Shown here: one piece after another, positions 1 to 12,305 of the stretch
Numbering within the stretch: position 1 is the stretch's first letter
Layout of the letters: each line of letters starts with the position of its first letter
Assembly: GCF_005577435.1 (NCBI RefSeq)
Contig: NZ_CP040396.1
Coordinates: 2,546,501 to 2,610,500 of the forward strand
Reading direction: 5' to 3'
DNA length: 64,000 nucleotides
From: Paenibacillus algicola
Lineage (GTDB): Bacteria; Bacillota; Bacilli; Paenibacillales; Paenibacillaceae
The notes under the pieces: generated by a model
What the model saw: only the letters and a program-made list of their open reading frames with translations
What the model was told of the DNA's origin: nothing
The model's database searches: none
Program-made: the position numbers and the translations under genes

Positions 1-113
1 TCACAAGATTACCCAAATCGTGATGTAATAATCATTCCACAGCAAAAGAACTCCCTTCCGGCTTGCAGCCGAAAAGAAGTCCCTATATTTTGCATCTGCA
101 GTTCAGTAAGCTC

Positions 114-944
114 TTACCATGATATTTCCAAAAAAGAAGCGTCATCCTCCAGCCCTTCTGTATGCCTCGCATCCATCAACACCTGAAGATCCTCATCAGG
201 CACCACTTCGGAAATACCATCGAGATCGCTGAGTCCGTCACTGTACAAGAGCAAGCGATAAGCCCCTGCAGCGTGAAGACGGCATTCATAGACATTCGGT
301 GTGCCCTTCGGTCCAGTCCGTGTAGACCAGCGATCACCGGTTCGAAAGGTTCCCGAGAAGGGTGAAGCCACCTCGGCCTGCTGCTGAAACAAACGCAGCC
401 GGGAATCGCCCTGCCATGCCAGCCACAGCCGGCCTTTGCGCCCCAATTTGCCAGGGAGCTCAATCCGGCCGCATAAGTACATCGCTTCACTGCCGTTCTG
501 TTTCTTCTCCTGAAGGATGTCTCTCAGCAAGAGCGGAGCATTCTGATCTACAGACAAAGCTTCCTCCTCCAGCCTGGCAGCTTGAGACAGCTGCACCAGC
601 CTTTTTTGCAGCAGATGGCGGCTTGGCTCTGCCTCCGTTCGCAGCCAGGATAGAAGACCCTCTCCCAGAAAACGAGCTGCGAAATCTCCGCGGTAGCTCA
701 TGCTCACACCGTCACACAGCACGAAGCTGCAGGTTCTTCCATCTACGGCAAAGGCCATATAATCCTGACCCTGCTCTTGCAGCTGAGCCGTCTCCGAGGC
801 TCGGCCATAGGCATAACGGCAATTGAACCTGCTTTTCAGGCTGGAGACCGGCTGCTCCTCATGCTGTCCACTCACATACGTGAAGCCATCAACAGGCCCT
901 GTTTTTTGTTTCCCGGCAAGCTTTCGGTTTGGTGATAATCGCAT
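114..944 (-). CDS. PP2C-family Ser/Thr protein phosphatase
   Basis: A cytoplasmic PP2C-type metal-dependent phosphatase of about 276 aa that probably reverses phosphorylation by the kinase encoded two genes upstream. Recognisable PP2C motifs are an N-terminal EQGQDYMAF (metal-binding Asp region), FVLCDGVSMSYRGD (equivalent of the DGxGG motif), a GDSR motif, LLYSDGLSD, and a C-terminal DDASF. The frame is open back to 1004, but that start would overlap the VWA gene. The ATG at 944 lies 4 nt after the VWA stop and suggests translational coupling; no strong ribosome site is visible. It is the last gene of the type VII secretion operon. Family assignment is confident; the substrate is inferred from context only. 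Confidence 0.8.
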   Translation of the reverse strand: MRLSPNRKLAGKQKTGPVDGFTYVSGQHEEQPVSSLKSRFNCRYAYGRASETAQLQEQGQDYMAFAVDGRTCSFVLCDGVSMSYRGDFAARFLGEGLLSWLRTEAEPSRHLLQKRLVQLSQAARLEEEALSVDQNAPLLLRDILQEKKQNGSEAMYLCGRIELPGKLGRKGRLWLAWQGDSRLRLFQQQAEVASPFSGTFRTGDRWSTRTGPKGTPNVYECRLHAAGAYRLLLYSDGLSDLDGISEVVPDEDLQVLMDARHTEGLEDDASFLEISW

Positions 945-948
945 AGCG

Positions 949-1710
949 TTAACGAACCGGGGTCGCCGCTGACATCTGGAATCCGATCGACACCAGCTCA
1001 GCACAGGTGCCAGGCAGCATCATAAGCGCACCAGACGCCAGCTGATAGTCTGCCTCCAGCAGCATTTCCCGGTAGCTGTCCGGCAGTACGGAGGACATAG
1101 CCCGGAGCTTCAGGGCATGCTCATCTTCAAGAGGAGTGTCGGAATGAATCCCTTTCCAGCGGCGCGGCTCTGTTACCGGCTGATTCAGCAAATGGTCCGA
1201 TATACATATATTCTCGACGAGAACATTGCCATCCGGGACACTCATACTCATGATCCGCTTCGCAATCGGCTCAGGATCCTCCCCCGTGGCTACACCATCA
1301 GTCATATGGCAAACGAGAGGGGCCGGGCAGTCCTGCATATTCGGAATTTCAGCCTTCAGGATTCTTTCGGCCTGCAGAAAGGCTTTGGCAGAATCCGAGA
1401 ACCGCTTCGGGGTCAGGTCTGGCAGCGAGCCAATCGCTGCAATTTCGTCAATACCCTTGATGCCGTTCAGCAAATCATAGACGTCATCACTGTATGCCAG
1501 AATAGCAATGCGATAGCGAGGCGTCAGTCGATTTCCCTTGGTAGAACGAAATACCATCTGCCGAATGGCCAGGGACAGCGCGTCATAGACGACATCAATG
1601 CGGCGCTTGCCCTCCATCAGCATATTCATAGAGGCACTGATATCAATTAAATAAATGATGAGTGCCGGTGTCCGCTGTGAAGCCTGAATACTATAATTCA
1701 CCTCATACAC
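949..1710 (-). CDS. VWA (von Willebrand factor A) domain protein, TerY-like
   Basis: A 253-aa protein that is essentially one vWA domain. The MIDAS metal site is intact: IYLIDISASMN supplies DxSxS near residues 22-28, and MTDGVATGED supplies the distal Asp. No signal peptide or membrane segment is seen, so it is probably cytosolic. It lies between a kinase gene (22 nt upstream) and a PP2C gene (4 nt downstream), the arrangement of TerY-P triads and of the T6SS PpkA/PppA switch, in which vWA domains mediate phospho-regulated protein contacts. The GTG at 1710 overlaps its own GGGG ribosome site, so the in-frame GTG at 1701 is an equally good start. Binding partner unknown. Confidence 0.8.
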   Translation of the reverse strand: MYEVNYSIQASQRTPALIIYLIDISASMNMLMEGKRRIDVVYDALSLAIRQMVFRSTKGNRLTPRYRIAILAYSDDVYDLLNGIKGIDEIAAIGSLPDLTPKRFSDSAKAFLQAERILKAEIPNMQDCPAPLVCHMTDGVATGEDPEPIAKRIMSMSVPDGNVLVENICISDHLLNQPVTEPRRWKGIHSDTPLEDEHALKLRAMSSVLPDSYREMLLEADYQLASGALMMLPGTCAELVSIGFQMSAATPVR

Positions 1711-1732
1711 CCCTGCGTCAATGTCATTGAAG

Positions 1733-3868
1733 TTAAAGGCTTGGCAGCCAGAACCCGCTGTTGTTCAAGAATAAATTAATATTGCTGCTGCGTGATTTCA
1801 TGGAGCCGACTGAATTGTAATAGGTCGCATCCTTCTGATACATCGTCTGAAAGCTCCGGGCGAAATTTCTTGCTCTCGGTAAGTTGTCGGTTACTTGAGC
1901 GTTATAAGCTTTGTTATAGTAAGCAATCAGAGTCACCACATTTTCCGCTCTCTGCTTCTTGAGCTGCTCGGCCTTGGCAGCAGCCTCTTGCTTACGAGCT
2001 TCCTCCTGCCGCTTGGCCGCCGCCTGGCGCTCTGCCTCTGCAGTCCGGGCTGCCTCTGCTGCTCGCGACTCTTCTGCGGCACGGGCAGCTGCTGCCTCTT
2101 TCTCCTCAGCCTCCCGCTGCTTCTTCTCCTCAAGCAAAGCCAGATACTGTTCATACTTCTCCTGCTTGTCGTACTTTTCCTGCAGAGCCTGCTTTTCTTT
2201 TTTGGCCTCCAGCTGAGCGAGATACGCTTCATATTTCGCCTGCTTGTCATACTTTTCCTGCAGTGCTGCTTTCTCGGCAGCGAGCTTGTCGGCTTCCTCC
2301 TGCTTCGCCTTCTCTTCTTCCTCTGCCTTCAGGCGAGCAGCGTCCTCGGCTTTTTTTTGCGCAGCCAGTCTGGCAGCCTCTTCTTCCTTTTCTGCGGCTT
2401 CTGCTGCTGCACGTTCCTTTTCTTCATCTTCTTGCTGCGTGGCTGCTGAGGCTTCCTGCTGCTGTCGGACCTCTGATTGGTCCGCCAGAATCTGGTTCAC
2501 TGTAAATACAGAGCCAGCCAGGACAGCAATGCCCGCAGCCGTAGATATCATAAATTTCCTGGAGCTTGCGATGGCTCTCCAGCCCTTCTTCTCTTCCTGT
2601 GGAGGATAGAGCTGTGACTCCAGATCATGAATAGCAGCCGCCAGCTCAACCTCTAATGGACTGTCTTTTTGAACAAAATGATACGCCGAACGGAAAATCT
2701 CCAGCGCTCCTGTCAGATTGCCTGCGGCCTCCAGATCCCGGGCTTGATGAAACAGCCGCGCGACAACATGATCATTCACCTCGCCGGTATCCGGCTGAAG
2801 TCCCAGATTGGCAGCAGCATCCTGGGCATGCTGAGCCGCTAGCGCTTCATCAATGACAGGCTTGCGAACGGCTCCCGCAACGGCCTCAGGCGCCTCGTGG
2901 GCAGAGTCTTGCTTCGTCACCGAAGCCGGCTCTTCAACAGAAACGGCGGATAACGCAACCAGCCATTCCCCAAAGGTAGGGCAGCTGCTCAGATCCTGAC
3001 TGTCCCACGCTCGGGTAAACAGATCACTAATGGCTGCCCCCCACCGCTGGCCAAGCGACTTCTTCAATAAGAAATACCTCTCGCAGCCGGTCTGCATCTC
3101 ATGCTGGTCGAAATAGCTTTCGCCCCAGGACTTGCTTACGACAGCGACATCGCTCCAGCCAAGCATCTCCGCAACGATGACAGCACCTGCAAAGCGATCT
3201 GCGTAAGAGCTCCAAAGACCGCTCTGAACCGCCCGATGCGCGGCATACCCTGGCGAGCCTGCCAGCAGAACGTCTGGCCGGTCCATCTTGGGACTATAGA
3301 TTTGCTCAACATCCACCAGCTCCACAGCGGCGGCTCCTTCAGGAAGCTCCACTTCCGAAAAAAACGGAAGCATGACATTAGGCGCGGAAAGGTCACAATG
3401 CGCAAGACCCTTTTGCTCCATACTGGAGCCGATCGCGGCCAGTGCCTTGGCCAGCGTCAGACTTTCGCTCCGGCTCAGGCTTCGCTGGTCGCTAATGACA
3501 TCAAACCAGGTCATCCCATGAATCCAGGGCATGATGACAGCATACAGCAGGTCAGGATACCGGGCTATCAGTTCTCCGTTTCTTTCGGGAGTGAGCACCT
3601 CTCGGCTGCAAACCTGCAGACCAGGTATTTCTTTATAGCCAGCCATATGATCCGATTGATAGACCATCGCCGGCATACGAAATTTAGGAAAAAACACCTT
3701 CAGCGCTTTAGCTTCATACGGTGAGCCATTTACAGGCAGCAGCTGGTAAACGATCCCCTGCCTTCCTGCCTGTGCATATGCAAGTCCCGGGGCCGCAGGA
3801 TGCTGCCCTACCCTGTACGCCGTATTATTAATTGTAATCTGATCTCCGGGTGCAGGCTGAAAACCCAT
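1733..3868 (-). CDS. membrane-anchored Ser/Thr protein kinase-like protein with coiled-coil tail (T7SS locus)
   Basis: 711 aa. Residues about 15-310 form a protein-kinase fold: a glycine-rich loop (GRQGIVY, about 35-41), the VAIK-type lysine in ALKVF (K57), a catalytic loop HCDLSAPNVML (D159, N164), a DFG-equivalent DVE (D186), and an activation segment AGSPGYA. The main catalytic residues are kept, so it may be active. EssB/YukC of type VII systems has the same kinase-fold-plus-TM layout but is a pseudokinase. A helical, TPR-like stretch covers about 365-420. One TM segment lies near 439-460. A long Ala/Glu/Lys coiled coil follows (about 465-650), with two tandem 26-residue repeats, and a short end domain (NVVTLIAYYNKAYN). 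It could replace EssB structurally, act as a regulator, or both. GC-rich low-complexity DNA gives long spurious ORFs on the other strand. Confidence 0.8.
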   Translation of the reverse strand: MGFQPAPGDQITINNTAYRVGQHPAAPGLAYAQAGRQGIVYQLLPVNGSPYEAKALKVFFPKFRMPAMVYQSDHMAGYKEIPGLQVCSREVLTPERNGELIARYPDLLYAVIMPWIHGMTWFDVISDQRSLSRSESLTLAKALAAIGSSMEQKGLAHCDLSAPNVMLPFFSEVELPEGAAAVELVDVEQIYSPKMDRPDVLLAGSPGYAAHRAVQSGLWSSYADRFAGAVIVAEMLGWSDVAVVSKSWGESYFDQHEMQTGCERYFLLKKSLGQRWGAAISDLFTRAWDSQDLSSCPTFGEWLVALSAVSVEEPASVTKQDSAHEAPEAVAGAVRKPVIDEALAAQHAQDAAANLGLQPDTGEVNDHVVARLFHQARDLEAAGNLTGALEIFRSAYHFVQKDSPLEVELAAAIHDLESQLYPPQEEKKGWRAIASSRKFMISTAAGIAVLAGSVFTVNQILADQSEVRQQQEASAATQQEDEEKERAAAEAAEKEEEAARLAAQKKAEDAARLKAEEEEKAKQEEADKLAAEKAALQEKYDKQAKYEAYLAQLEAKKEKQALQEKYDKQEKYEQYLALLEEKKQREAEEKEAAAARAAEESRAAEAARTAEAERQAAAKRQEEARKQEAAAKAEQLKKQRAENVVTLIAYYNKAYNAQVTDNLPRARNFARSFQTMYQKDATYYNSVGSMKSRSSNINLFLNNSGFWLPSL
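2111..2266 (-). repeat. tandem 78-bp coding repeat (2 copies)
   Basis: Two adjacent in-frame copies, 2189-2266 and 2111-2188, each encode a 26-residue unit beginning ALQEKYDKQ and containing KYExYLAxLE. The protein copies differ at only a few positions. They extend the coiled coil of the membrane kinase beyond its TM segment and look like a recent unit duplication. Copy number may vary between strains. Confidence 0.8.
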
Positions 3869-3922
3869 TGCAGCTCCCCCTTTCTATTGTCAAAATTAAG
3901 ATTCTGTTTCATAGATCAAATT

Positions 3923-3957
3923 AGAGAAAAACCGGGAGTCCATAACCACCCGGTTTC
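3923..3957 (-). terminator. intercistronic hairpin after the WXG100 gene
   Basis: On the minus strand AAACCGGG (3956-3949) pairs with CCCGGTTT (3936-3929) around a 12-nt loop, with a short T run after it. It lies between the WXG100 gene and the kinase gene inside the operon. It could partly terminate transcription, or protect the 3' end of the WXG100 message, and so set a higher WXG100 level. Confidence 0.6.
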
Positions 3958-3998
3958 TGCTTTCATATCCTGATATGCTATAGCTTGGTTCACTTCTA

Positions 3999-4274
3999 CT
4001 AGCGTGTCTGATCAGCCATACGGAACTTCTGCGCAATTGCCTTCAGCTCGCTGCTGATGCTTTCCAGTGTTTGAACGAATGAGTTCATAAGGCGGCTGGC
4101 CTCCTGGAACTCCTGGAAGAAACGCTGCTTCGTCATACCGTCCCATTGACCTTCCATGCTGTTGACGGACTGCGTCAGGCTGTTGACGATCTGTTGGCTC
4201 TGATCACCACTCTGCTTAAATTGATTGGCTACCTGCTCTACTTGCTCCGGGGTAATTAAAATACGACCTGCCAT
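3999..4274 (-). CDS. esxA: WXG100 family type VII secretion target (EsxA-like)
   Basis: A 91-aa helical-hairpin protein with the central WxG turn (QWDGM, around residue 43) and the usual WXG100 length. The C terminus contains FRMAD, a variant of the YxxxD/E secretion signal with Phe in place of Tyr. Such proteins are exported as dimers by the FtsK/SpoIIIE-type ATPase and often accompany other substrates. The frame is open to 4373, but ATG 4274 has a strong AAAGGAGG site 7-8 nt upstream and gives the family start MAGRILITPEQV. The gene is bracketed by a candidate promoter (4321-4349) and a hairpin (3923-3957), which fits an abundant secreted product. Confidence 0.9.
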   Translation of the reverse strand: MAGRILITPEQVEQVANQFKQSGDQSQQIVNSLTQSVNSMEGQWDGMTKQRFFQEFQEASRLMNSFVQTLESISSELKAIAQKFRMADQTR

Positions 4275-4320
4275 GTATGTTTCCTCCTTTAATATGAATG
4301 CATATTTAACTGCTGAAAAC

Positions 4321-4349
4321 ATCGTAGCCCAGATCACATTCAATATCAA
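4321..4349 (-). promoter_or_regulatory. candidate internal promoter for the WXG100 gene
   Basis: On the minus strand TTGATA (4349-4344) is followed after 17 nt by TACGAT (4326-4321), in the 139-nt gap upstream of the WXG100 start. The -10 box is weak. Support comes mainly from the unusually long gap in an otherwise tight operon. Confidence 0.35.
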
Positions 4350-4413
4350 AATGTCATCCGACCCATTTTCCAATTACCACCAATGACCCATATTTGAAAC
4401 TGTTCAGGATGAT

Positions 4414-4923
4414 TTAATTAGCAGGCGCTAAGCGTGACGGATCTGCGAAGGTCCAGCCCTGTCCCGAAAGAGCCGCCTGCTTGGCCGATTCCTTGCCTTC
4501 CGCTGTCGCCATGCCAACCGCCTGAACTACAGAGCTTGGATTGGAAATATCGGGCGAGCTTCCCGCTGGAGCCAGAATGGAACGGGACATTTCCTGCCGG
4601 GAGGCTGCAAAAAGAGAAACCGGCGAAACTCCTCCTACGAGGGCATGGTTCAGCACGGAATTGTATTGATGATCCGTCTCCTGAAACAAATCGGCCTTTC
4701 CCGCCAGCTCCTGGCCCAGCCTTTCCAGCAGAGAACCCACTTGCATGCCCAACCGCTGGGCGAGATGCCACTCGTCCATCACTGCTGCCTTAAGCGAGGT
4801 TTCCCAGACGAGGGAATTCATGGCCTCACCGAGCTGATTACTCATCCCTGCAAATTGACTACCGGAGTGCAGGAGCTGCCGGCTTAATGACCGGAGCCGT
4901 TCCGGTTCGACAGAAATACGCAT
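4414..4923 (-). CDS. WXG100-like protein with C-terminal extension, possible secreted partner
   Basis: 169 aa. The first 100 residues or so are two predicted helices separated near residue 40 by LVWETS, in the position of a WxG turn (WET, Gly replaced). The rest, about 105-169, is Ser/Ala/Pro/Gly-rich and probably flexible (SILAPAGSSPDISNP). This resembles long WXG100/LXG-type substrates or dimer partners. It lies 27 nt after the EspG-like gene and 139 nt before the canonical WXG100 gene. The start at ATG 4923 is preceded by AAAGGTGAGG. No toxin domain is visible. It may be the heterodimer partner of the 91-aa protein; that is inference. Confidence 0.6.
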   Translation of the reverse strand: MRISVEPERLRSLSRQLLHSGSQFAGMSNQLGEAMNSLVWETSLKAAVMDEWHLAQRLGMQVGSLLERLGQELAGKADLFQETDHQYNSVLNHALVGGVSPVSLFAASRQEMSRSILAPAGSSPDISNPSSVVQAVGMATAEGKESAKQAALSGQGWTFADPSRLAPAN

Positions 4924-4950
4924 AGGTCCTCACCTTTCATTCGGGCTGAC

Positions 4951-5757
4951 TCACTGTTTTAACCACATCATTAGCATCTGATAAAAATGTTCACGGGTTG
5001 CCGGCGCAGCCGTCAGCCAGTCCTGATCACCCTGGAGACTCATACGCAGCAACCAGCACATGGATTCATCAGATATAAAGGCCGCATTCTGGCTCTCCCA
5101 GCGATATTCATTCCAAACTGACAATTGAAGCTCTCCCGAGGAGACCTTGTTCTTCATGCACTTGGCGAGAGCCAATGAGCCTTCGGCATCATCTGTAAGC
5201 TTGGCCAGCCGGTCCGCAATCGCATCACCGGAAGCCGTCGCAGAGGATGTGAATATATCACTAAATTCTTTACGGCTCAGAAGCAGGGCCGGTATTTCAC
5301 CAAGAGGAGCCTCACTGAGAGCTAAATCGTTTACCAGTCTCTGGCAGGTGCTTTCCACGGTGCCCAGCTCAGTCAGGGCATATTGCTGGTCGTTTACGCC
5401 GCACTTACACACCTGGATCACCTGGTCTCCGACAACATGGAGATACCCTTCGAAGCTGGTTCCCAGATGTTCATATTTCAGCCAGCACGCTCTTTCAGCA
5501 AGACCGGCTACAGCTACCCTAGAAAACACCTCAGGAGGGATCGAAAGCTCTCCAGTGTCCTCTAATATTAAATAATTTTTCTCCAGCAAGGAGGTTTTTG
5601 CTGACTCCCATTCCAGCGCAATCTCTTCCGTTAAGTATCCACTGAAAGGATCTTTGACGCCGAGCAGGCGATCAGAGCCAAGAATACCTGCTAGGAAAAA
5701 GAACTCTTTATCATCAAGTGTAATCGTCTCCTGTTTAGAAGCAGGAATCGTCAACAT
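4951..5757 (-). CDS. uncharacterised T7SS-locus protein, possibly EspG-like chaperone
   Basis: 268 aa, soluble, no signal peptide or TM segment. The N-terminal pattern (EFFFLAGILGSDRLLGVKDP, about 18-37, then residues typical of a long helix) and mixed alpha/beta content recall the EspG chaperones of actinobacterial ESX systems. This is a by-eye impression and no defining motif is known to me. Three Cys residues occur (WLKY context and CKCG), but they do not form a clear metal site. The gene lies 16 nt after the ATPase gene and just before the two WXG-type genes, the usual place for a substrate-specific chaperone. Start ATG 5757 has AGGGAGGTGA upstream. Confidence 0.45.
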   Translation of the reverse strand: MLTIPASKQETITLDDKEFFFLAGILGSDRLLGVKDPFSGYLTEEIALEWESAKTSLLEKNYLILEDTGELSIPPEVFSRVAVAGLAERACWLKYEHLGTSFEGYLHVVGDQVIQVCKCGVNDQQYALTELGTVESTCQRLVNDLALSEAPLGEIPALLLSRKEFSDIFTSSATASGDAIADRLAKLTDDAEGSLALAKCMKNKVSSGELQLSVWNEYRWESQNAAFISDESMCWLLRMSLQGDQDWLTAAPATREHFYQMLMMWLKQ

Positions 5758-5773
5758 TATGAGTCACCTCCCT

Positions 5774-8700
5774 TCAAACTACAACATGCCATCGGTCACG
5801 AATTTCCTTGACCCATTTTTCTGGATTCCAGACCTCTGTAAAAGGAACTGCGCCTTTGATTCTGGAAAATTTACGTTTTATATAGTACCCTTGTCCCGGA
5901 GGAAGGAGCTTTAGTCCTCCAGCACTATGGTTGGATTCCGAAAAAGGAATTCTAAAGAAGGACAAATCGTTAGAGTCCAAAGTACCAAACAGAAATCCTG
6001 CTTGGGCTGCTTTAATATCCGAGAACCAGTCCACGCCGTATGTCGGGAAATCAGCAGGCACTCCGGAAATGATGACATGAACATTACGGTCTCTGCCCAG
6101 CCGTACAATGGAGGACAGCTGATCCTTCACTGTGAAATCATTAAGCTGCTTACTGAGCACATCCGCATCATCAATCATAAGCACAATGGGTCTATGCTCT
6201 TCTTCCTTCGTTCGCAGCTGAACGGCTTCGTAGATTTTGGAGATCAATGCCGTCAGCTCCTCTTCATCTGAAGCAGTCCCCTTGACATGAGGCAGCTGAC
6301 TTAAAGAAGCAAGGCCCTGGCTCCCATAGCGGGTATCTACCGTATATAGCTCCAGCTCCTCTGGAGAAGAATGAAGAGCCATAGACAGCATCCAGCTCAG
6401 CATAAAGGAGGTCTTTCCTCCCTCCATGGGACTGCCAATGATGAAATGCGGGCCCTCCTCCAGCGAAAGGTTAAAGGGATCCAAATCATCGGTGGTTAGA
6501 CCGAGCGTCACTTGACGCGACGCTTGATGTGCGGCTTGACTGTAAGGCTGATCCATGTCCAGCAGCTCATGCAGCTGGATCTTCTCCGGCAGTGACAAAA
6601 TAGCGGGTGCTTTCTCTCCACTCCAGGAGTGGCTTAGCTGTTGAATTTGCTTACGCAGCGCTGCCGAACGCTCCCCCTCATCCCGGCCCGGGGCCGGAAG
6701 AGCTGACTGGAATTCCAGCGGCGGCACCTGTCCCTTTACCAGCCCGCGGCCCGGCGGCAGCTGACTTGGTGCTTTGGTCGGACGTCCGACTGCGTAATAA
6801 TAATCCGATGGATCTGCCAGCTCGAAACTCAATGCATGCGAGATATTGCTGCGAACCTTTTCAAATATATCGGAGATCCGGTTCGCTGAGATGATAAAGG
6901 TGATGCCGAGACTTCCACCCTCCCGAAGCAAATACTCCAGCATATCATTTTCATCGGCATACGTATTTCTGAAATTAAGATAGCCATCAATCACAACGAT
7001 CAGCTGCGGCAAAGCACTTGACATTGAACGCCGGTAAGACGACGCGGTTTTGACGCCGGCCTCGGCCATCCATTCCTTGCGAGTGGCTGCGGTCCGGGCC
7101 AGGAAACGGAATAACCGCTTGATCCGGTCGTCATCCTCCGTCGTCATCACTGCACCGATATGCGGCAGTCCGGCAAAGTCTCGCATCGTCCGGCCCATAT
7201 CCACGATATATCCATGCCATTGGTCAGGTTGATATTGCGCGGCCAGGGACATCAGCATCGTTTGGATCAGCGTGGTCTTGCCGAGTCCCGGCATGCCATA
7301 GATGACCCAATGGCCCTGTTCCAGATTTAGCAAGAGCGGCCGCTGGCATTGCTGAGTCAGATCATCTACAAGCCCCGCAGAAGCTGTTAAAGGAAGACTA
7401 CCTGCCGAAGCAAGCTGATCCTCCTGAGCAGCCAGGGCTTCGACCTCCTCCAATTCCAGCGTTTCCGGCAGCGGCGGGAGCCATGGTCCCGGAAGCCGTG
7501 AGATTCCATGAGCACTTGCAGCCTCGGCTGCCTGGTTAATGAACACCTGCAGCTGCTTCATGGGCTCTTCTTGATGCACCTTCGATGCCTGCGAGGGCGC
7601 AAGCATCGGCTCATATTTCCCATTCAGGCGCAGCTCACGGATCTGAACAGCAGCATCCTGATCATCTTGATGTACTGTATATGGCGCACCGCTCCAGGCA
7701 AACTGCATCTCTTCGAACACTTCATCACTACCGACCTGAAAATAGCCGCGACCCGGCTTATTGATCCAGGCAGCGTTCGGGATTTTCAGCATGTCCCGGC
7801 TGTCGCCTTCACTTTGGACGCGCAGACAGATTCGAAAGCGAGAATTACTCCAGATCTTATCGTCGACAACCCCGGCCGGCTTCTGCGTAGCAAGAATCAA
7901 GTGCACGCCGAGTGTCCGTCCGATTGCCGCAATACTGATTAATTCATCCATAAATTCGGGCTGGTCCTTCTTGAGCTGTGCGAATTCGTCAATAATAATG
8001 ACTAGATGCGGCAGGGGTACGCCCTGCCCGCTGCGGAGCAGCTTGTAATATTCATCAATATGCTGGAGATTGCCAGCATCGTTCAACAGCTTCTGCCGGC
8101 GCACCAGCTCTGCTTTTAAGGACACTTTTGCACGCTCGATCAGGTTGTTATCCAGATTAGTGATGGTTCCAACGACATGAGGCAGGTGAAGGAAGGTGTT
8201 CGACATGCCTCCACCCTTGTAATCGATAAGCATAAAGGCCAGATCATGCGGATGAAACTCTGCCGCCAGAGAAGCAACTATGGACTGGATAACCTCACTT
8301 TTGCCGGAGCCTGTAGTTCCGGCAATCAGCCCGTGGGGGCCATGGCCGCCGCGTTCAATTTTGTCATGCAGATTCAGATTGATCCTCTTGCTGCCAGCCC
8401 GCACACCCATCGCTACCGGCAGTGAGTCCGGGTAACGGTTCTGCTGCCATCTGCGGTGGAGATCCAGCTCTTCAATGGTCTCAATCTCCATCATTTCAAA
8501 TAGCGTTAAGGTGGAAGGAATGTCTGAAGCGGACGAGCGCTTCAGTCGAATTGGAGCCATATATCGAGCCAAAGCCTCCATCTGGTCCCGAGATACATGA
8601 TCGATATCAAAGCCCTGCTGTCTCGCCTTTCCATCTTCCTTGACCGTAACCACGGCTCGGTCTTTGCCCGCCTCCAAAATCAGCTGACACTGCATCGGCA

Positions 8701-9772
8701 GGGATTCCTTTCGGTCAGACAGCACAATCGTTATAGCGTCCACCGCCTCCGCTTCCTCCATGAGGAGCGGCAGCAGCGGCTCTTCCTCAATCAGCTGGGC
8801 GGATGACAGCAGAATCATGTAGGCCGGAATATTCATCGAGCGAGCGGCATAATCGCTGCCGCTTCGGCGGCGGCGATTGAGCTGCATGAAGAGCTCGTCG
8901 GCCAGCTGATGAGCGGTGCTGCGCCGATCTGCCAGATATCGTGCAGAGCGGTCATCATCCCAGCAGTGCGGGAACCATCTCATCCAGTCCCATTCATCCG
9001 CTTCCTTTTCCTCGTAAAAAGCCGCGAGCTTCACCTCATCCGGCGAATGGCGCACGGTCATCTGAGCGACAAGCACGCGCAAGGCATTCAGAGCATGCTC
9101 CCGCTGACCAACCACCCCGATCACCTTGGACTGATTCAGCGGCAGCGTAATTGAAGCATCTTCAACGACCGCAAAATCAGCTGCCAGGACTTCCGCCGCT
9201 TCAATAAGCGGATCTTTCTCGTATCCATCTGATCTGGGCGGCTTGATGTGGACGAAGAAAGGGACCTGACCCTTTCCGGCCCGCAGCTCCAGAAAATCAC
9301 TATCCTCCACAGATCTTTCCCAGAGCCTGCTGCTGCGGCTTTTGACGATCTGGCTGCATACCTCGGGATCACCATGAATCTCAAACATGGTTTCTACCTG
9401 TTCCCGCTGACGCTCCTTCAGCTCTTCCCGGTGCAGCTCCAGCTGGGCGCGATACATCCGGTCTCTTTCTTCAAGCCGCTTCCGATAAACCTTCTTATTG
9501 CTGAGATACATAAAGAAGGGCAGGGTATAGGACATGAGCATCATCGGAATCATGATCATCTGAAACATCATAAATCCGCCGCTGCCCATACGTCCTGACA
9601 TATTCATATAGACATAAAATGCGATCATCAATGCAGTCATAATGACGGGAATGATGATCGAAATCATAGAAAATGATGGCTTGCTAGGTTCTGTGGGAGG
9701 CCTGAATATTTCCATATCCTCTTGCTGAAGAGCGGGTTTAATCCGCGGAGATCTCTGATACAAGACGTTCAT
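5774..9772 (-). CDS. eccC: type VII secretion ATPase, EccC/EssC family
   Basis: About 1332 aa. The N terminus (YQRSPRIKP) resembles EccC rather than EssC, and the two FHA domains found at the start of EssC are missing. Two TM helices lie near 34-57 and 66-90. Three FtsK/SpoIIIE ATPase domains follow, with Walker A motifs GTTGSGKS (about 485-492), GMPGLGKT (about 826) and GSPMEGGKTS (about 1112). The first domain has a clear Walker B (VIIIDEF, about 592). The enzyme is the membrane motor that recognises and exports WXG100 substrates. ATG 9772 is preferred over 9793 because GAGGAGG lies at the right distance. Only 16 nt separate it from the next gene. Confidence 0.92.
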   Translation of the reverse strand: MNVLYQRSPRIKPALQQEDMEIFRPPTEPSKPSFSMISIIIPVIMTALMIAFYVYMNMSGRMGSGGFMMFQMIMIPMMLMSYTLPFFMYLSNKKVYRKRLEERDRMYRAQLELHREELKERQREQVETMFEIHGDPEVCSQIVKSRSSRLWERSVEDSDFLELRAGKGQVPFFVHIKPPRSDGYEKDPLIEAAEVLAADFAVVEDASITLPLNQSKVIGVVGQREHALNALRVLVAQMTVRHSPDEVKLAAFYEEKEADEWDWMRWFPHCWDDDRSARYLADRRSTAHQLADELFMQLNRRRRSGSDYAARSMNIPAYMILLSSAQLIEEEPLLPLLMEEAEAVDAITIVLSDRKESLPMQCQLILEAGKDRAVVTVKEDGKARQQGFDIDHVSRDQMEALARYMAPIRLKRSSASDIPSTLTLFEMMEIETIEELDLHRRWQQNRYPDSLPVAMGVRAGSKRINLNLHDKIERGGHGPHGLIAGTTGSGKSEVIQSIVASLAAEFHPHDLAFMLIDYKGGGMSNTFLHLPHVVGTITNLDNNLIERAKVSLKAELVRRQKLLNDAGNLQHIDEYYKLLRSGQGVPLPHLVIIIDEFAQLKKDQPEFMDELISIAAIGRTLGVHLILATQKPAGVVDDKIWSNSRFRICLRVQSEGDSRDMLKIPNAAWINKPGRGYFQVGSDEVFEEMQFAWSGAPYTVHQDDQDAAVQIRELRLNGKYEPMLAPSQASKVHQEEPMKQLQVFINQAAEAASAHGISRLPGPWLPPLPETLELEEVEALAAQEDQLASAGSLPLTASAGLVDDLTQQCQRPLLLNLEQGHWVIYGMPGLGKTTLIQTMLMSLAAQYQPDQWHGYIVDMGRTMRDFAGLPHIGAVMTTEDDDRIKRLFRFLARTAATRKEWMAEAGVKTASSYRRSMSSALPQLIVVIDGYLNFRNTYADENDMLEYLLREGGSLGITFIISANRISDIFEKVRSNISHALSFELADPSDYYYAVGRPTKAPSQLPPGRGLVKGQVPPLEFQSALPAPGRDEGERSAALRKQIQQLSHSWSGEKAPAILSLPEKIQLHELLDMDQPYSQAAHQASRQVTLGLTTDDLDPFNLSLEEGPHFIIGSPMEGGKTSFMLSWMLSMALHSSPEELELYTVDTRYGSQGLASLSQLPHVKGTASDEEELTALISKIYEAVQLRTKEEEHRPIVLMIDDADVLSKQLNDFTVKDQLSSIVRLGRDRNVHVIISGVPADFPTYGVDWFSDIKAAQAGFLFGTLDSNDLSFFRIPFSESNHSAGGLKLLPPGQGYYIKRKFSRIKGAVPFTEVWNPEKWVKEIRDRWHVVV

Positions 9773-9819
9773 GGGGCGCCTCCTCAATATCACATTATGT
9801 AAGCTGCTTCATTACATCC

Positions 9820-10131
9820 TCACGGTTCCTGGAACAAGCTTCTTCGTCCGTATACCGGGGCGGTTTCCAGCGTTGTTGAAAATGCCCGCTGCAGGCGGAT
9901 GTATGAGCCCTCCCGAAGGCCTGCCTCGACGAGGCTACTTCCTTCCTGAACCTGAAACCATAGTCCCTCCGGAAATTTGGCTTCCAATATATATTGTACG
10001 CCCGGCTCGGGCAGCTCCTGGAACAGCCGGAGTCCGAGCAGCTCGTTTAGACGATGGACGGTACAGCTGTCAGGTACATCTATATCAAAGGTCTCATCAC
10101 TTCTGCGTCCGCTGACTACCGTCAAAATCAT
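9820..10131 (-). CDS. yukD: YukD/EsaB-like ubiquitin-fold type VII secretion protein
   Basis: 103 aa with the beta-grasp pattern of YukD: an initial strand ILTVVSG, an acidic turn, DIDVPDSCTVHRLNELLG (strand plus first helix), and a C-terminal IRLQRAF strand. There is no terminal Gly-Gly, as expected for YukD proteins, which are not conjugated. In characterised systems EsaB/YukD is a cytosolic component required for secretion. It is the first gene of the operon, with 47 nt to the ATPase gene. ATG 10131 is chosen because AGAAGGGG lies upstream; the frame is open to 10155. Confidence 0.75.
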   Translation of the reverse strand: MILTVVSGRRSDETFDIDVPDSCTVHRLNELLGLRLFQELPEPGVQYILEAKFPEGLWFQVQEGSSLVEAGLREGSYIRLQRAFSTTLETAPVYGRRSLFQEP

Positions 10132-10167
10132 GCAGGAATGCCACCCCTTCTGCATTATATTTAATTG

Positions 10168-10211
10168 GTTACATTGTTGTAACTATATCATCAGTGAGTC
10201 TACCCTGTCAA
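10168..10211 (-). promoter_or_regulatory. T7SS operon promoter with overlapping 16-bp palindrome (candidate operator)
   Basis: On the minus strand TTGACA (10211-10206), an 18-nt spacer and TATAGT (10187-10182) form a near-consensus sigma-A promoter. It is overlapped at its downstream edge by GTTACATTGTTGTAAC (10168-10183), a perfect 6+4+6 inverted repeat covering the end of the -10 box and the likely start site. The position is typical of a repressor operator. The regulator is unknown. Confidence 0.65.
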
Positions 10212-10442
10212 TTTGTGTCATATTCCTTTCTCCCTATATGACCTCGAACACCCTAGTCCAAAAGCACCAGCGCAGATATTGAAACAGGGAAATCCAGTCC
10301 ATATTCATCCATTCACCCTTATTTTACTATATAAATCAATATAGATAGCAAAAAAATGCAATATTATTGAAATTCAGCTCCTTCCTTGTCAGCTCATTCA
10401 CAAAAATGTCACGGACAGCCATAGGTTGGTGATTAAATATCT
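10212..10442. other. intergenic region, no gene seen
   Basis: AT-rich spacer between the divergent T7SS operon and the small plus-strand gene. No ORF with a ribosome site and no stable hairpin was recognised. Confidence 0.5.
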
Positions 10443-10478
10443 CATTTTAAGGTTATTTTAAGTTTGGACGTTTATAAT
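10443..10478 (+). promoter_or_regulatory. promoter region with direct repeat TTTTAAG
   Basis: Two copies of TTTTAAG, 11 bp apart centre to centre (10445-10451 and 10456-10462), precede a perfect TATAAT (10473-10478). No good -35 box is present. A direct repeat with one-helical-turn spacing in place of the -35 box is the usual layout for an OmpR/PhoB-type activator. Confidence 0.4.
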
Positions 10479-10516
10479 GCAACTATCATGAAACTATATT
10501 TTCGTGAGGTGATCAC

Positions 10517-10756
10517 ATGAAAATGCTAATTATGTTCCAAAACAAACCGGTTCCTGTATATTTCACCACGGATAATAAGCAGCCGGTACAAAAAGTTCTA
10601 AAGCTGTTGACCAGCGCCCTGGACGATAAAATCAATAACGGGAAAAAGGCACTGAAAAAATGCCTCAACTCCCTGATCAGCATCGAGATCGAGGGCTCTG
10701 AGGCCATTCTTCACAGCAAAAGCGAAAATGATTCTCTTGCGCTATCTCTTTTCTAA
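10517..10756 (+). CDS. small hypothetical protein (79 aa)
   Basis: I do not recognise a family. 79 aa, basic in the middle (KINNGKKALKKCLNSL) and without a TM segment or signal peptide. It starts MKMLIMFQNKPVPVYF and ends in LALSLF. It is convincing as a gene because it has a GAGGTGATC ribosome site, an upstream TATAAT box, and a perfect terminator hairpin that begins inside its last codons. It is monocistronic and divergent from the T7SS operon. Confidence 0.7.
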   Translation: MKMLIMFQNKPVPVYFTTDNKQPVQKVLKLLTSALDDKINNGKKALKKCLNSLISIEIEGSEAILHSKSENDSLALSLF

Positions 10757-10772
10757 GAGATAGCCTTTTTTT
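10741..10772 (+). terminator. Rho-independent terminator
   Basis: A perfect 10-bp stem, GCTATCTCTT (10741-10750) with AAGAGATAGC (10755-10764), a 4-nt loop, then a run of seven T. It overlaps the stop codon of the 79-aa gene. Confidence 0.9.
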
Positions 10773-10802
10773 GTGTAGAAGAACCTGGCGGTCACCGCCG
10801 TG

Positions 10803-10940
10803 CTAGGCATGGCGGATCCGCTGCTCCTCCTCGGCTTGAGCTTTAAGAACACGAATCTGAAACAGCTTTAGTAGGTTGAAGGTTGTGTTAGCTTCCTGAC
10901 AGGTGCCCAATTTTCTTAAGATAAAACGATCAATGGACAT
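10803..10940 (-). CDS. small hypothetical ORF (45 aa)
   Basis: A 45-codon ORF starting MSIDRFILRKLG, with an AGGAG ribosome site 8 nt upstream of ATG 10940 and ending in AEEEQRIRHA. No family recognised, no TM segment, charged C terminus. It is convergent with the 79-aa gene. The only supports are the ribosome site and the intact frame. Confidence 0.4.
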   Translation of the reverse strand: MSIDRFILRKLGTCQEANTTFNLLKLFQIRVLKAQAEEEQRIRHA

Positions 10941-11321
10941 GCCTCTCACTCCTGACTTTTTCATTCATCATTCAAAGCGACATTAGGATCATCAACCGGG
11001 GGAGGAAGGGAAAATATTTCCTGACTGCGGGTATTTTTTATTTAACCGTACTTCCCGGCTCTTAAACGCTTGGAAACAGGACAAACCGGGCCCGAATGAG
11101 CAACAATCCGCAGTGAAAAATGCTTTATAGTGCTAACTTTATCCATATCTAGTGATGCAATTTGATTCCAGCTAATCCCAGTTCAATATATAGAAAGACA
11201 AAAAAATTTAAACTGCTTGAAATTTTTATAGGGATGCCGTTGGATTTCGGTCTCTTTTTGCGGTAGGATAAATAATACTGTTTCCACACATAGCTAACCA
11301 CATAAGGAGGCGCAGCCATAT
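10941..11321. other. intergenic region upstream of ypdA
   Basis: 380 bp without a convincing ORF. It holds the ribosome site AAGGAGG of ypdA at its right end. I see no clear promoter pair, riboswitch or terminator. Confidence 0.4.
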
Positions 11322-12305
11322 ATGCTAGACGTTTTAATTATCGGGGCAGGGCCCTGCGGCCTGTCTACGGCGATCGAATGTCAGAAGCGCGGACTGTCCG
11401 CAGAGCTTATTGACAAACATAATCTTGTGCATTCCATCTATCTATATCCGACGCATATGCAGTTTTTCAGCACCGCTGAAATGCTTGAGATTGGCGATGT
11501 GCCGTTCGCACTATCGAATGACAAGCCTTACCGCGATGAGGCATTGGCATATTATCGCCGAGTGGCCGAGCATTATCAGCTAGCGATCACCCCGTATGAA
11601 GAAGCTCTTTCTATCCAAAAGCAAGGCGACAGCTTTATCGTCAGCACCCGCAAGCGTAATGGCACCGAGGGGACCCGCACGGCCCGAAATGTCGTCATCT
11701 CTACGGGATACTTTGACCACCCGAATTATATAGGAATCCCCGGGGAGGACCTCGACAAGGTATCTCACTATTTTAGAGAGGCACACCCTTATGCCGGCAT
11801 GAACACGGTCATTATCGGAGGCAGCAACTCCGCCGTCGATGCCGCTATGGAGCTCGTCCGGGTCGGTGCCAAGGTCAGTGTCGTCTACCGCGGCAGTGAA
11901 ATTTCGCCGAATATCAAGCCTTGGGTACGCCCGTTATTTGAAGGCATGGTGCATAAGGGGAAAATCGCGCTTCATCTGGAATCCAGCGTAACAGACATCC
12001 AGGAGGCTCAGGTGACTATCTCTTCCCTGTCAGGAAAAGAGCAGATCATTGAGAATGACTTCGTGCTGGCACTAACCGGCTTTCGGCCGGATCGGCAGCT
12101 GCTTGCCTCCTCCGGAGTGAAACTCGACGAGGAAATGGAGAAGCCCCGGTTCAATCCCGATACGATGGAAACGACGGTACCGGGCTTGTTCGTGGCAGGC
12201 GTCATTGCTTCAGGTCGCAACGCGAATGAAGTATTCATTGAGACCGGACGATATCATGGCCGCCTCATCGCCGAGCACCTTGCTGGCCATCCCGCGGAAT
12301 CATGA
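11322..12305 (+). CDS. ypdA: YpdA family bacillithiol disulfide reductase-like flavoprotein
   Basis: 327 aa, a two-dinucleotide-binding-domain flavoprotein. The FAD Rossmann motif is LIIGAGPCGLSTA near residues 5-17, and the NADPH Rossmann motif is VIIGGSNSAVDAA near 162-174. The C-terminal FAD segment is TTVPGLFVAGVIASG. The region HMQFFSTAEMLEIG is typical of YpdA. In bacilli YpdA (Bdr) reduces oxidised bacillithiol using NADPH, without the CxxC active site of thioredoxin reductase, and none is seen here. Start ATG 11322 follows AAGGAGGCGC. It probably forms a short operon with the DUF441 gene. Confidence 0.9.
   Translation: MLDVLIIGAGPCGLSTAIECQKRGLSAELIDKHNLVHSIYLYPTHMQFFSTAEMLEIGDVPFALSNDKPYRDEALAYYRRVAEHYQLAITPYEEALSIQKQGDSFIVSTRKRNGTEGTRTARNVVISTGYFDHPNYIGIPGEDLDKVSHYFREAHPYAGMNTVIIGGSNSAVDAAMELVRVGAKVSVVYRGSEISPNIKPWVRPLFEGMVHKGKIALHLESSVTDIQEAQVTISSLSGKEQIIENDFVLALTGFRPDRQLLASSGVKLDEEMEKPRFNPDTMETTVPGLFVAGVIASGRNANEVFIETGRYHGRLIAEHLAGHPAES

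Follow-up and report, generated by a model that had tools for sequence, protein, structure and literature searches.

A complete T7SSc locus in Paenibacillus algicola, with a kinase, a vWA protein, and a phosphatase that may control its export engine

In a 64,000-nucleotide stretch of the genome of Paenibacillus algicola (hereafter the window; positions are those of this stretch), the minus strand carries eight open reading frames (ORFs), at 114-10155, that combine parts of a type VII secretion system (T7SS) with a Ser/Thr kinase, a vWA protein, and a PP2C phosphatase. The window almost certainly holds a complete locus of the T7SSc type, belonging to clade 1. We propose, with a probability of about 0.6, that the catalytic kinase TscD, together with the vWA protein TscE, phosphorylates the export engine, and that the phosphatase TscF resets it. 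(Numbers beginning with L and G refer to the loci and genomes in our comparison sets.)

T7SSc was described in 2024 by Garrett, Higginson and Palmer, who reported it from Paenibacillus and others (PMC11217815). In the sections of that paper that we draw on here and below, the parts of T7SSc are TscA (a WXG100 protein), TscB (ubiquitin-like), TscC (an ATPase without FHA), TscD (a membrane kinase), TscE (a vWA protein), TscF (a PPM phosphatase), and TscG (EspG-like). All seven components were located in the window, which shares with the published system the FHA-less EssC and Paenibacillus as a source. An earlier note on this DNA had recognized eight same-strand genes with T7SS parts, a kinase, a vWA protein with a metal ion-dependent adhesion site (MIDAS), and a PP2C, and had assigned the last three to the secretion system. 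ORF calling recovers all eight genes, and the match to TscA-TscG bears out the assignment. The note also knew of no described T7SS with such a switch. Here the 2024 paper had come before it, and that paper also raised phosphorylation control of some of the new T7SS subtypes (PMC11217815). We therefore ruled out an undescribed T7SS, as the arrangement matches T7SSc. A full-text search of openly licensed PMC papers returned PMC11217815 as the only paper on T7SSc. The system was named from genome comparison, and in the parts of the T7SSc literature that we draw on, we found no tested role for its kinase, vWA protein, or phosphatase. A 2008 study of the essC cluster of Bacillus anthracis reportedly observed the secretion of WXG proteins there.

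From 5' to 3', the genes encode a YukD-type protein, EssC, a 268-amino-acid (aa) protein, a 169-aa WXG-like protein, a WXG100 protein, the kinase, the vWA protein, and the PP2C. The EssC/EccC-type membrane ATPase (TscC, 5774-9793) scores 1216 bits against TIGR03928, where the cut-off is 778, and no FHA domain from Pfam was found in its residues 1-198. We built a tree of 59 EssC proteins (by a quick method, with a midpoint root, no bootstrap, and neither T7SSa proteins nor published T7SSc references). The window's protein falls inside a T7SSc clade of 15 sequences with a Shimodaira-Hasegawa-like approximate likelihood ratio test (SH-aLRT) value of 100, and seven YukC-linked EssC proteins are separate from this clade (SH-aLRT 100). 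The clade is itself split in two, and the EssC of T7SSc is said to form two groups in PMC11217815 as well.

T7SSb (EssA/EssB/EssC/EsaA/EsaB/EsxA) resembles the window in having an EssC motor, a YukD-type protein, a WXG100 protein, and a membrane protein with a kinase fold. However, YukC/EssB (PF10140) was not found in the complete P. algicola genome at E 0.001, while the B. subtilis control matched. (The genome is one contig of 4.475 Mb, with a completeness of 99.97, and contains one EssC above the cut-off.) Also, the active site of the window's kinase is intact, and its EssC is FHA-less and in a separate clade. There are two differences from T7SSc as published: an additional WXG-like gene, discussed below, and the lack of tscF in one subclade of our sample.

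TscD (1733-3868, 711 aa) comprises a kinase region (residues 1-314), one transmembrane helix at about 439-457 (predicted from hydropathy only), and a coiled-coil C-terminal part. Its Pkinase match of 17.7 bits is, alone, below the Pfam cut-off, but a kinase fold was found. We aligned 77 kinase sequences, including the window's (L008 and L064 were omitted as too short, and L077 and L079 had no match). K57 is present in 74 of these (3 gaps), D159 in 74 (1 Asn and 2 gaps), and D186 in 76 (1 gap). As judged from its sequence, TscD is a membrane kinase with intact active-site residues. The layout of TscD (kinase, transmembrane helix, helical part) was likened to that of EssB in PMC11217815; EssB no longer has any of the three catalytic motifs, according to the part of PMC12599244 that we used. 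EssB was not among the 50 matches listed for the model of TscD; these were filled by kinases, so this is uninformative.

TscE (949-1710, 253 aa) is a TerY-family vWA protein with a complete MIDAS. It matches PF13519 at 22.8 bits, which alone is below the cut-off, and the TerY model of PADLOC (PDLC02224) at E 4.2e-22. Among 81 aligned sequences, including the window's, the DxSxS motif is present in 80 (1 gap) and T137-D138-G139 in all 81. It lacks a transmembrane helix (the best 19-residue hydropathy is 1.44). Most TscE sequences of both Bacillota and Chloroflexota (see below) have a conserved SxxT[PQ] at the C-terminus, which may be structural. In the parts of PMC11217815 that we draw on, a vWA protein is named for T7SSc only. 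TscF (114-1004) is similar: PF13672 gives 21 bits, alone below the cut-off, and the metal-binding residues Asp98, Asp200, Asp256, Asp287, and Asp288 are present in 77 of 77 aligned sequences (including the window's, with none from L071, L078, L079, or L084). The true start of TscF is probably downstream of 1004, because 25 relatives have a stop codon in the matching 5' part.

Two known systems are comparable. The earlier note had likened the three genes to the TerY-P triads, which also combine a TerY-type vWA protein, a PP2C, and a Ser/Thr kinase. This holds for the vWA protein, given its PADLOC match, but not for the kinase. The TerY-P kinase carries a C-terminal zinc ribbon or OB-fold (as defined in the part of PMC11090510 that we used), whereas the window's kinase has a transmembrane helix and long coiled-coil helices in that place, and its neighbors are T7SS genes. 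Pfam shows Pkinase and no other domain on TscD at E 0.1, so we ruled out its membership in TerY-P. PADLOC has no match for the kinase at E 0.01. The threonine phosphorylation pathway of the type VI secretion system (PpkA/PppA/Fha; discussed in PMC11217815) also places a membrane kinase and a PP2C beside a secretion engine. Unlike that pathway, the window has a different motor, and TscC has no FHA reader.

TscB (9820-10155) is a ubiquitin-like protein of the YukD/EsaB type. Its start is probably at 10131 (MILTV), because many relatives begin at MILTV. The window's TscB had no direct match in Pfam, and a sequence search of the PDB found nothing meaningful. However, hhalign matched it to a YukD-type profile (probability 95.6, E 1.1e-8), and the TscB of L078 matches PF08817 at E 3.6e-5, below the cut-off. 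The YukD match ends at residue 90 and is followed by a C-terminal tail that includes F92-S93-T94-T95 (9871-9882). We compared 72 TscB sequences from T7SSc (omitting L031, L050, and L074, which are at contig ends, and the partial sequences from L030, L047, L053, and L064). S93 is present in 72 of 72 and T94 in 71 of 72, with Ser in the other one, so that all 72 have the motif [FY]S[TS]. This includes the proteins of the L110 type, which end within a few residues; the tail reads FSTA in L012 and, as in the window, FSTT in L075. The TsxB proteins of the kinase-vWA-fusion type (L076, L077, L080, L114, and L118, where L080 was counted without a check of the fusion itself) end with the YukD domain and lack the tail motif, and so does TsxB from L108, which has no triad of kinase, vWA protein, and phosphatase. 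Ten further TsxB proteins from triad-less loci have at most about eight extra residues and no [FY]ST; the one from L161 is a fusion. Thus the [FY]S[TS] tail is a feature of T7SSc in this sample, and it is no more than a candidate acceptor of phosphate.

Two other arrangements of YukD-like domains were seen. In L161, a 408-aa protein (4944-6170) begins with this domain and is hydrophobic in a stretch of its C-terminal part; its neighbors are an EspG-like protein and an EssC of 1329 aa, and no triad was found within the stretch examined. The YukD-like proteins of L182, L185, L186, L188, and L189, from Chloroflexota, have a long tail with a conserved GxGVRW near the end.

The earlier note had suggested a search for co-occurrence of the eight genes. 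Using the vWA protein of the window as the query, we scanned one genome per species and obtained 80 loci. All eight genes are present in 71 of these (tblastn, E 1e-4), a count that leans towards triad-bearing loci because the vWA protein was the query. Of the other nine, L048 and L056 run off their contigs, and L076-L080, L083, and L084 are distant. Our sample of the family, 197 genomes, has 53 strong vWA matches, spread over 48 genomes; 52 of the 53 matches are within 28 kb of essC on the same strand. (Nine genomes whose best vWA match was weak, at about E 1e-8 to 1e-11, were left out of the TscE count.) The eight-gene grouping is not due to chance, and the T7SSc locus occurs in many Paenibacillus species. 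When we searched 398 genomes from across Bacillota for TscE at E 1e-40, it was found in 5, each of them from the window's own family. The T7SSc of Bacillus and Brevibacillus that are named in PMC11217815 were not recovered at this threshold, so our sample of T7SSc is in effect from Paenibacillaceae, with one record labelled Neobacillus (L068).

The family sample has 77 essC loci, and in 25 of them no vWA gene lies within 40 kb. We examined 20 of these 25, mostly with flanks of about 5 kb, and found no kinase, vWA, or phosphatase gene (18 by profile and 2 by blastp; the five left out are those of G053, G152, G179, and G187 and the C8 locus of G112). In the tree, the EssC proteins of vWA-less loci belong to other clades. 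The earlier note had held that T7SS loci without the triad in close relatives would speak against it. Such loci exist: 13 of the 22 sampled genomes of the window's genus have EssC, and 10 of these 13 lack a strong vWA match. This goes partly against the note but leaves the link within T7SSc intact. The triad-less loci are not the same system minus its switch, because the 8 of the 10 that were placed in the tree sit in other EssC clades. The triad is thus a marker of T7SSc and not of T7SS at large.

Variants within T7SSc show which parts persist. L110, L111, L116, and L177 form a subclade on one side of the T7SSc tree, and L078 and L117 resemble them in gene order. The genomes with a match to the phosphatase profile include G000, G049, G120, and G198, which have a locus of the clade 1 type (G049, G120, and G198 have both types), as well as G048 and G033, whose loci (L112 and L113) are sisters of the subclade and have their own tscF. 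L116 has neither kinase nor vWA gene. Both are present in L117, which lies on the same G159 contig at a distance of about 27 kb. Each of the two sets is partial: L116 offers a motor, TscA, and TscG, and L117 offers TscA, a vWA protein, TscB, a kinase, and TscG, as if the two shared parts.

Outside T7SSc, three loci (L076, L114, and L118) encode an FHA-bearing EssC (FHA at E 6e-13 to 3e-16) that branches apart. These loci have a kinase-vWA fusion and a PP2C, as well as a second, TscD-like kinase that is downstream in L076 and L118 and on the far side of essC in L114. The sections of PMC11217815 that we draw on list components for T7SSd, e, and j, and the set seen here (for example, L076, 1394-15346) does not appear there.

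The same linkage is found in a second phylum. L083 is from an Anaerolineales record, and we searched 301 genomes of its phylum, Chloroflexota. TscE-type vWA genes are present in 20 of these (E 1e-20), 18 of which have EssC; EssC is present in 57 of the 301 (E 1e-100). The vWA gene is thus found in 18 of 57 genomes with EssC and 2 of 244 others (Fisher p 1.2e-12, which ignores relatedness). We took the 14 loci (L179-L192) in which no more than about 10 kb separates TscE from essC on one contig. By profiles, 13 of these contain the vWA gene, 12 the kinase, 9 the phosphatase, and 9 all three (for example, L183, 6700-14736). The vWA gene of L191 runs off the contig end; it was found by the genome search and missed by ORF calling. 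In the other six genomes with TscE, one copy is 640 kb from essC, three are on other contigs, and two genomes have no EssC match at E 1e-60. The kinase of L179 has 1239 aa with a long extra part. The EssC proteins of Chloroflexota are on long branches outside the T7SSc of Bacillota, and the linkage may reflect common descent or separate recruitment. It had been published before that Chloroflexota have WXG100 proteins and T7SS-linked toxins (in the parts of PMC3935865, PMC10765036, and PMC3482391 that we used), but we found no openly licensed PMC paper that ties them to the kinase/vWA set. In one Anaerolineales genome (G197), the T7SS locus, L107, has its own kinase-like, PP2C-like, FHA-like, EspG-like, and WXG100-like genes.

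We suggest the following mechanism. TscD would occupy the membrane position of EssB, the pseudokinase of T7SSb, but as a catalytic protein. With TscE as a metal-dependent adaptor, it would phosphorylate a component of the export engine, and this may lead the TscC hexamer to assemble or open. TscF would reverse the phosphorylation and so reset the engine. Because TscC has no FHA domain, the phosphate would need to work either directly or via a reader that we have not seen, and a direct effect on a protein contact is the more probable. TscG would probably chaperone the neighboring WXG-like protein, as EspG does PE/PPE pairs. On sequence grounds, we lean slightly towards kinase control of export activity. 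Within the clade, S93/T94 in the tail of TscB is the best candidate for the acceptor, but that the tail is the target of the kinase strikes us as rather improbable.

Several observations weigh against this proposal. Besides the bias in how the 80 loci were chosen, L078, L110, L111, L117, and L177 keep the kinase and vWA genes and have no phosphatase gene in the stretch examined, and the two genomes with only the subclade type (G007 and G159) have no match to the TscF family at E 1e-8. In L078, L084, and L177, TscD has no outer domain, its C-terminal end being a hydrophobic stretch, and 10 of the 12 Chloroflexota kinases have only 308-335 aa. The coiled coil in the outer part of the window's kinase thus does not belong to a common core, and sensing outside the cell would not be general. 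The TscB of Chloroflexota lacks the T7SSc motif and has a different tail, which in most sequences ends near GxGVRW. The statistical test of the link between the vWA gene and EssC in Chloroflexota takes no account of relatedness, and in G197, the triad (L083) is 640 kb from essC. Finally, in Cohnella lupini a kinase-vWA fusion stands next to Tad-pilus-like genes, together with a PP2C and a DUF6382-FHA protein (L079/L115; L079, 75-10759; the Tad-pilus-like labels are from inspection of the sequences), and its genome has no EssC match at E 1e-40.

Sets like these last two, which lack a nearby EssC, along with the match of TscE to TerY in PADLOC, might indicate that the triad is an independent TerY-P-like cassette for stress or defense signaling that neighbors the T7SS by chance. 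We consider this very unlikely: all but one of the 53 strong matches in the family are near essC, the linkage recurs in Chloroflexota, and the kinase has neither a PADLOC match (at E 0.01) nor a Pfam domain other than Pkinase (at E 0.1). It is less improbable, but still unlikely, that TscD is mainly structural, that is, a scaffold for TscC that replaces EssB, with its kinase activity serving its own assembly and with the phosphatase and vWA protein as assembly factors. The EssB-like layout noted in PMC11217815 and the absence of YukC from the genome fit this idea. But EssB is without all three catalytic motifs (PMC12599244), whereas the active-site residues of TscD are retained in at least 74 of 77 sequences. 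Most of the Chloroflexota kinases are short, and the vWA and phosphatase genes adjoin the kinase gene.

The kinase pathway might instead govern the expression of the locus or the cell envelope, and not the secretion engine. There is a precedent in IreK, which does so for the T7SSb of Enterococcus (in the parts of PMC11217815 and PMC10765036 that we used). Against this, which we regard as doubtful, the pairing of kinase and vWA protein stands beside essC in two phyla. Also, IreK is a PASTA kinase whose gene lies outside the T7SS locus, whereas TscD is encoded inside the operon.

A broader form of our proposal is that the kinase and the TerY-type vWA protein, with an optional PP2C, are a portable control unit for T7SS in at least three EssC lineages and two phyla. 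The lineages are the T7SSc of Bacillota, the FHA-bearing T7SS with the kinase-vWA fusion, and the T7SS of Chloroflexota. In the T7SSc of Bacillota, the unit would phosphorylate the [FY]S[TS] tail of TscB and switch its contact with the motor without an FHA reader. The association across lineages is seen in the data presented here, and the phosphorylation of the tail is our conjecture; taken together, we would bet against this version. A phosphosite in the tail of TscB cannot be a rule for all triad-linked T7SS, as the Chloroflexota TscB is without the motif.

The remaining genes of the locus concern the exported proteins. TscG (4951-5757, 268 aa) has the fold of EspG, as judged by fold comparison. 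A sequence search of the PDB found no relative (the best hit, at E 0.17, was unrelated). As with the EspG chaperone of T7SSa, it has the EspG fold and an adjoining WXG-like gene, but it is only 9-16% identical to the solved EspGs in the fold alignments. TscA (3999-4274), the counterpart of EsxA in T7SSc, is the sole protein of the locus above the WXG100 cut-offs, with 70 bits for PF06013 (cut-off 27.3) and 76 bits for TIGR03930. Its ORF opens at 4373; we placed the start at MAGR as in its relatives, which have 90-92 aa. The second WXG-like protein (4414-4923, 169 aa) scores 15.5 bits for WXG100, below the cut-off. A single WXG100 gene per T7SSc is listed in the sections of PMC11217815 that we draw on, and this extra gene, beyond the seven listed parts, stands between tscG and tscA in the window and in 72 of the 80 loci. 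It encodes 168-210 aa in 56 loci (the window's form) and 351-397 aa in 16. The four long-form loci that we inspected (L030, L041, L050, and L055) have extra genes before tscA; in L050, these encode a membrane-like protein with a weak match to DUF3784 and a DUF4176 protein. The 169-aa protein is probably a client of the EspG-like protein, or it fills the slot of a substrate or co-secreted partner.

In place of this gene, L078 has two WXG genes, one of them WXG100 and the other Lap-like, and a large protein with RHS repeats and a pre-toxin domain, which is likely an exported antibacterial toxin. The large proteins of L110 and L117 are related to it. A WXG/Lap pair with a large protein of about 1600 aa was seen in the T7SSc loci L078 (13605-18779), L110 (1001-6129), and L117 (1597-7067).

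Upstream of the first gene, at 10182-10211 on the minus strand, the sequence TTGACA-18-TATAGT resembles a promoter; its second hexamer is preceded by TG, and 11 of 12 positions match the consensus. This is weak evidence, because 13 such sites occur in 1-11400, little above the 10.0 +- 2.8 in shuffled sequences. Downstream of the locus, beyond the window, are an SDR-type ORF and a glutamyl-tRNA-synthetase-like ORF (from inspection of L004, with labels assigned by eye).

The arrangement itself was already known, and the interest of this locus is in the extensions described here and in the direct tests that the control model now allows. For T7SSc, a control unit can now be defined: one operon encodes a kinase that is intact, an adaptor of the TerY type, and a phosphatase, and there is a single candidate motif for the acceptor. 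The kinase and vWA protein persist without the phosphatase or the outer domain of the kinase, and they recur in Chloroflexota, so these are the parts that any model must explain. If export were switched on by phosphorylating a ubiquitin-like subunit, this would be a new way of gating a secretion system, and it would bear on why EssB of T7SSb retains a dead kinase fold.

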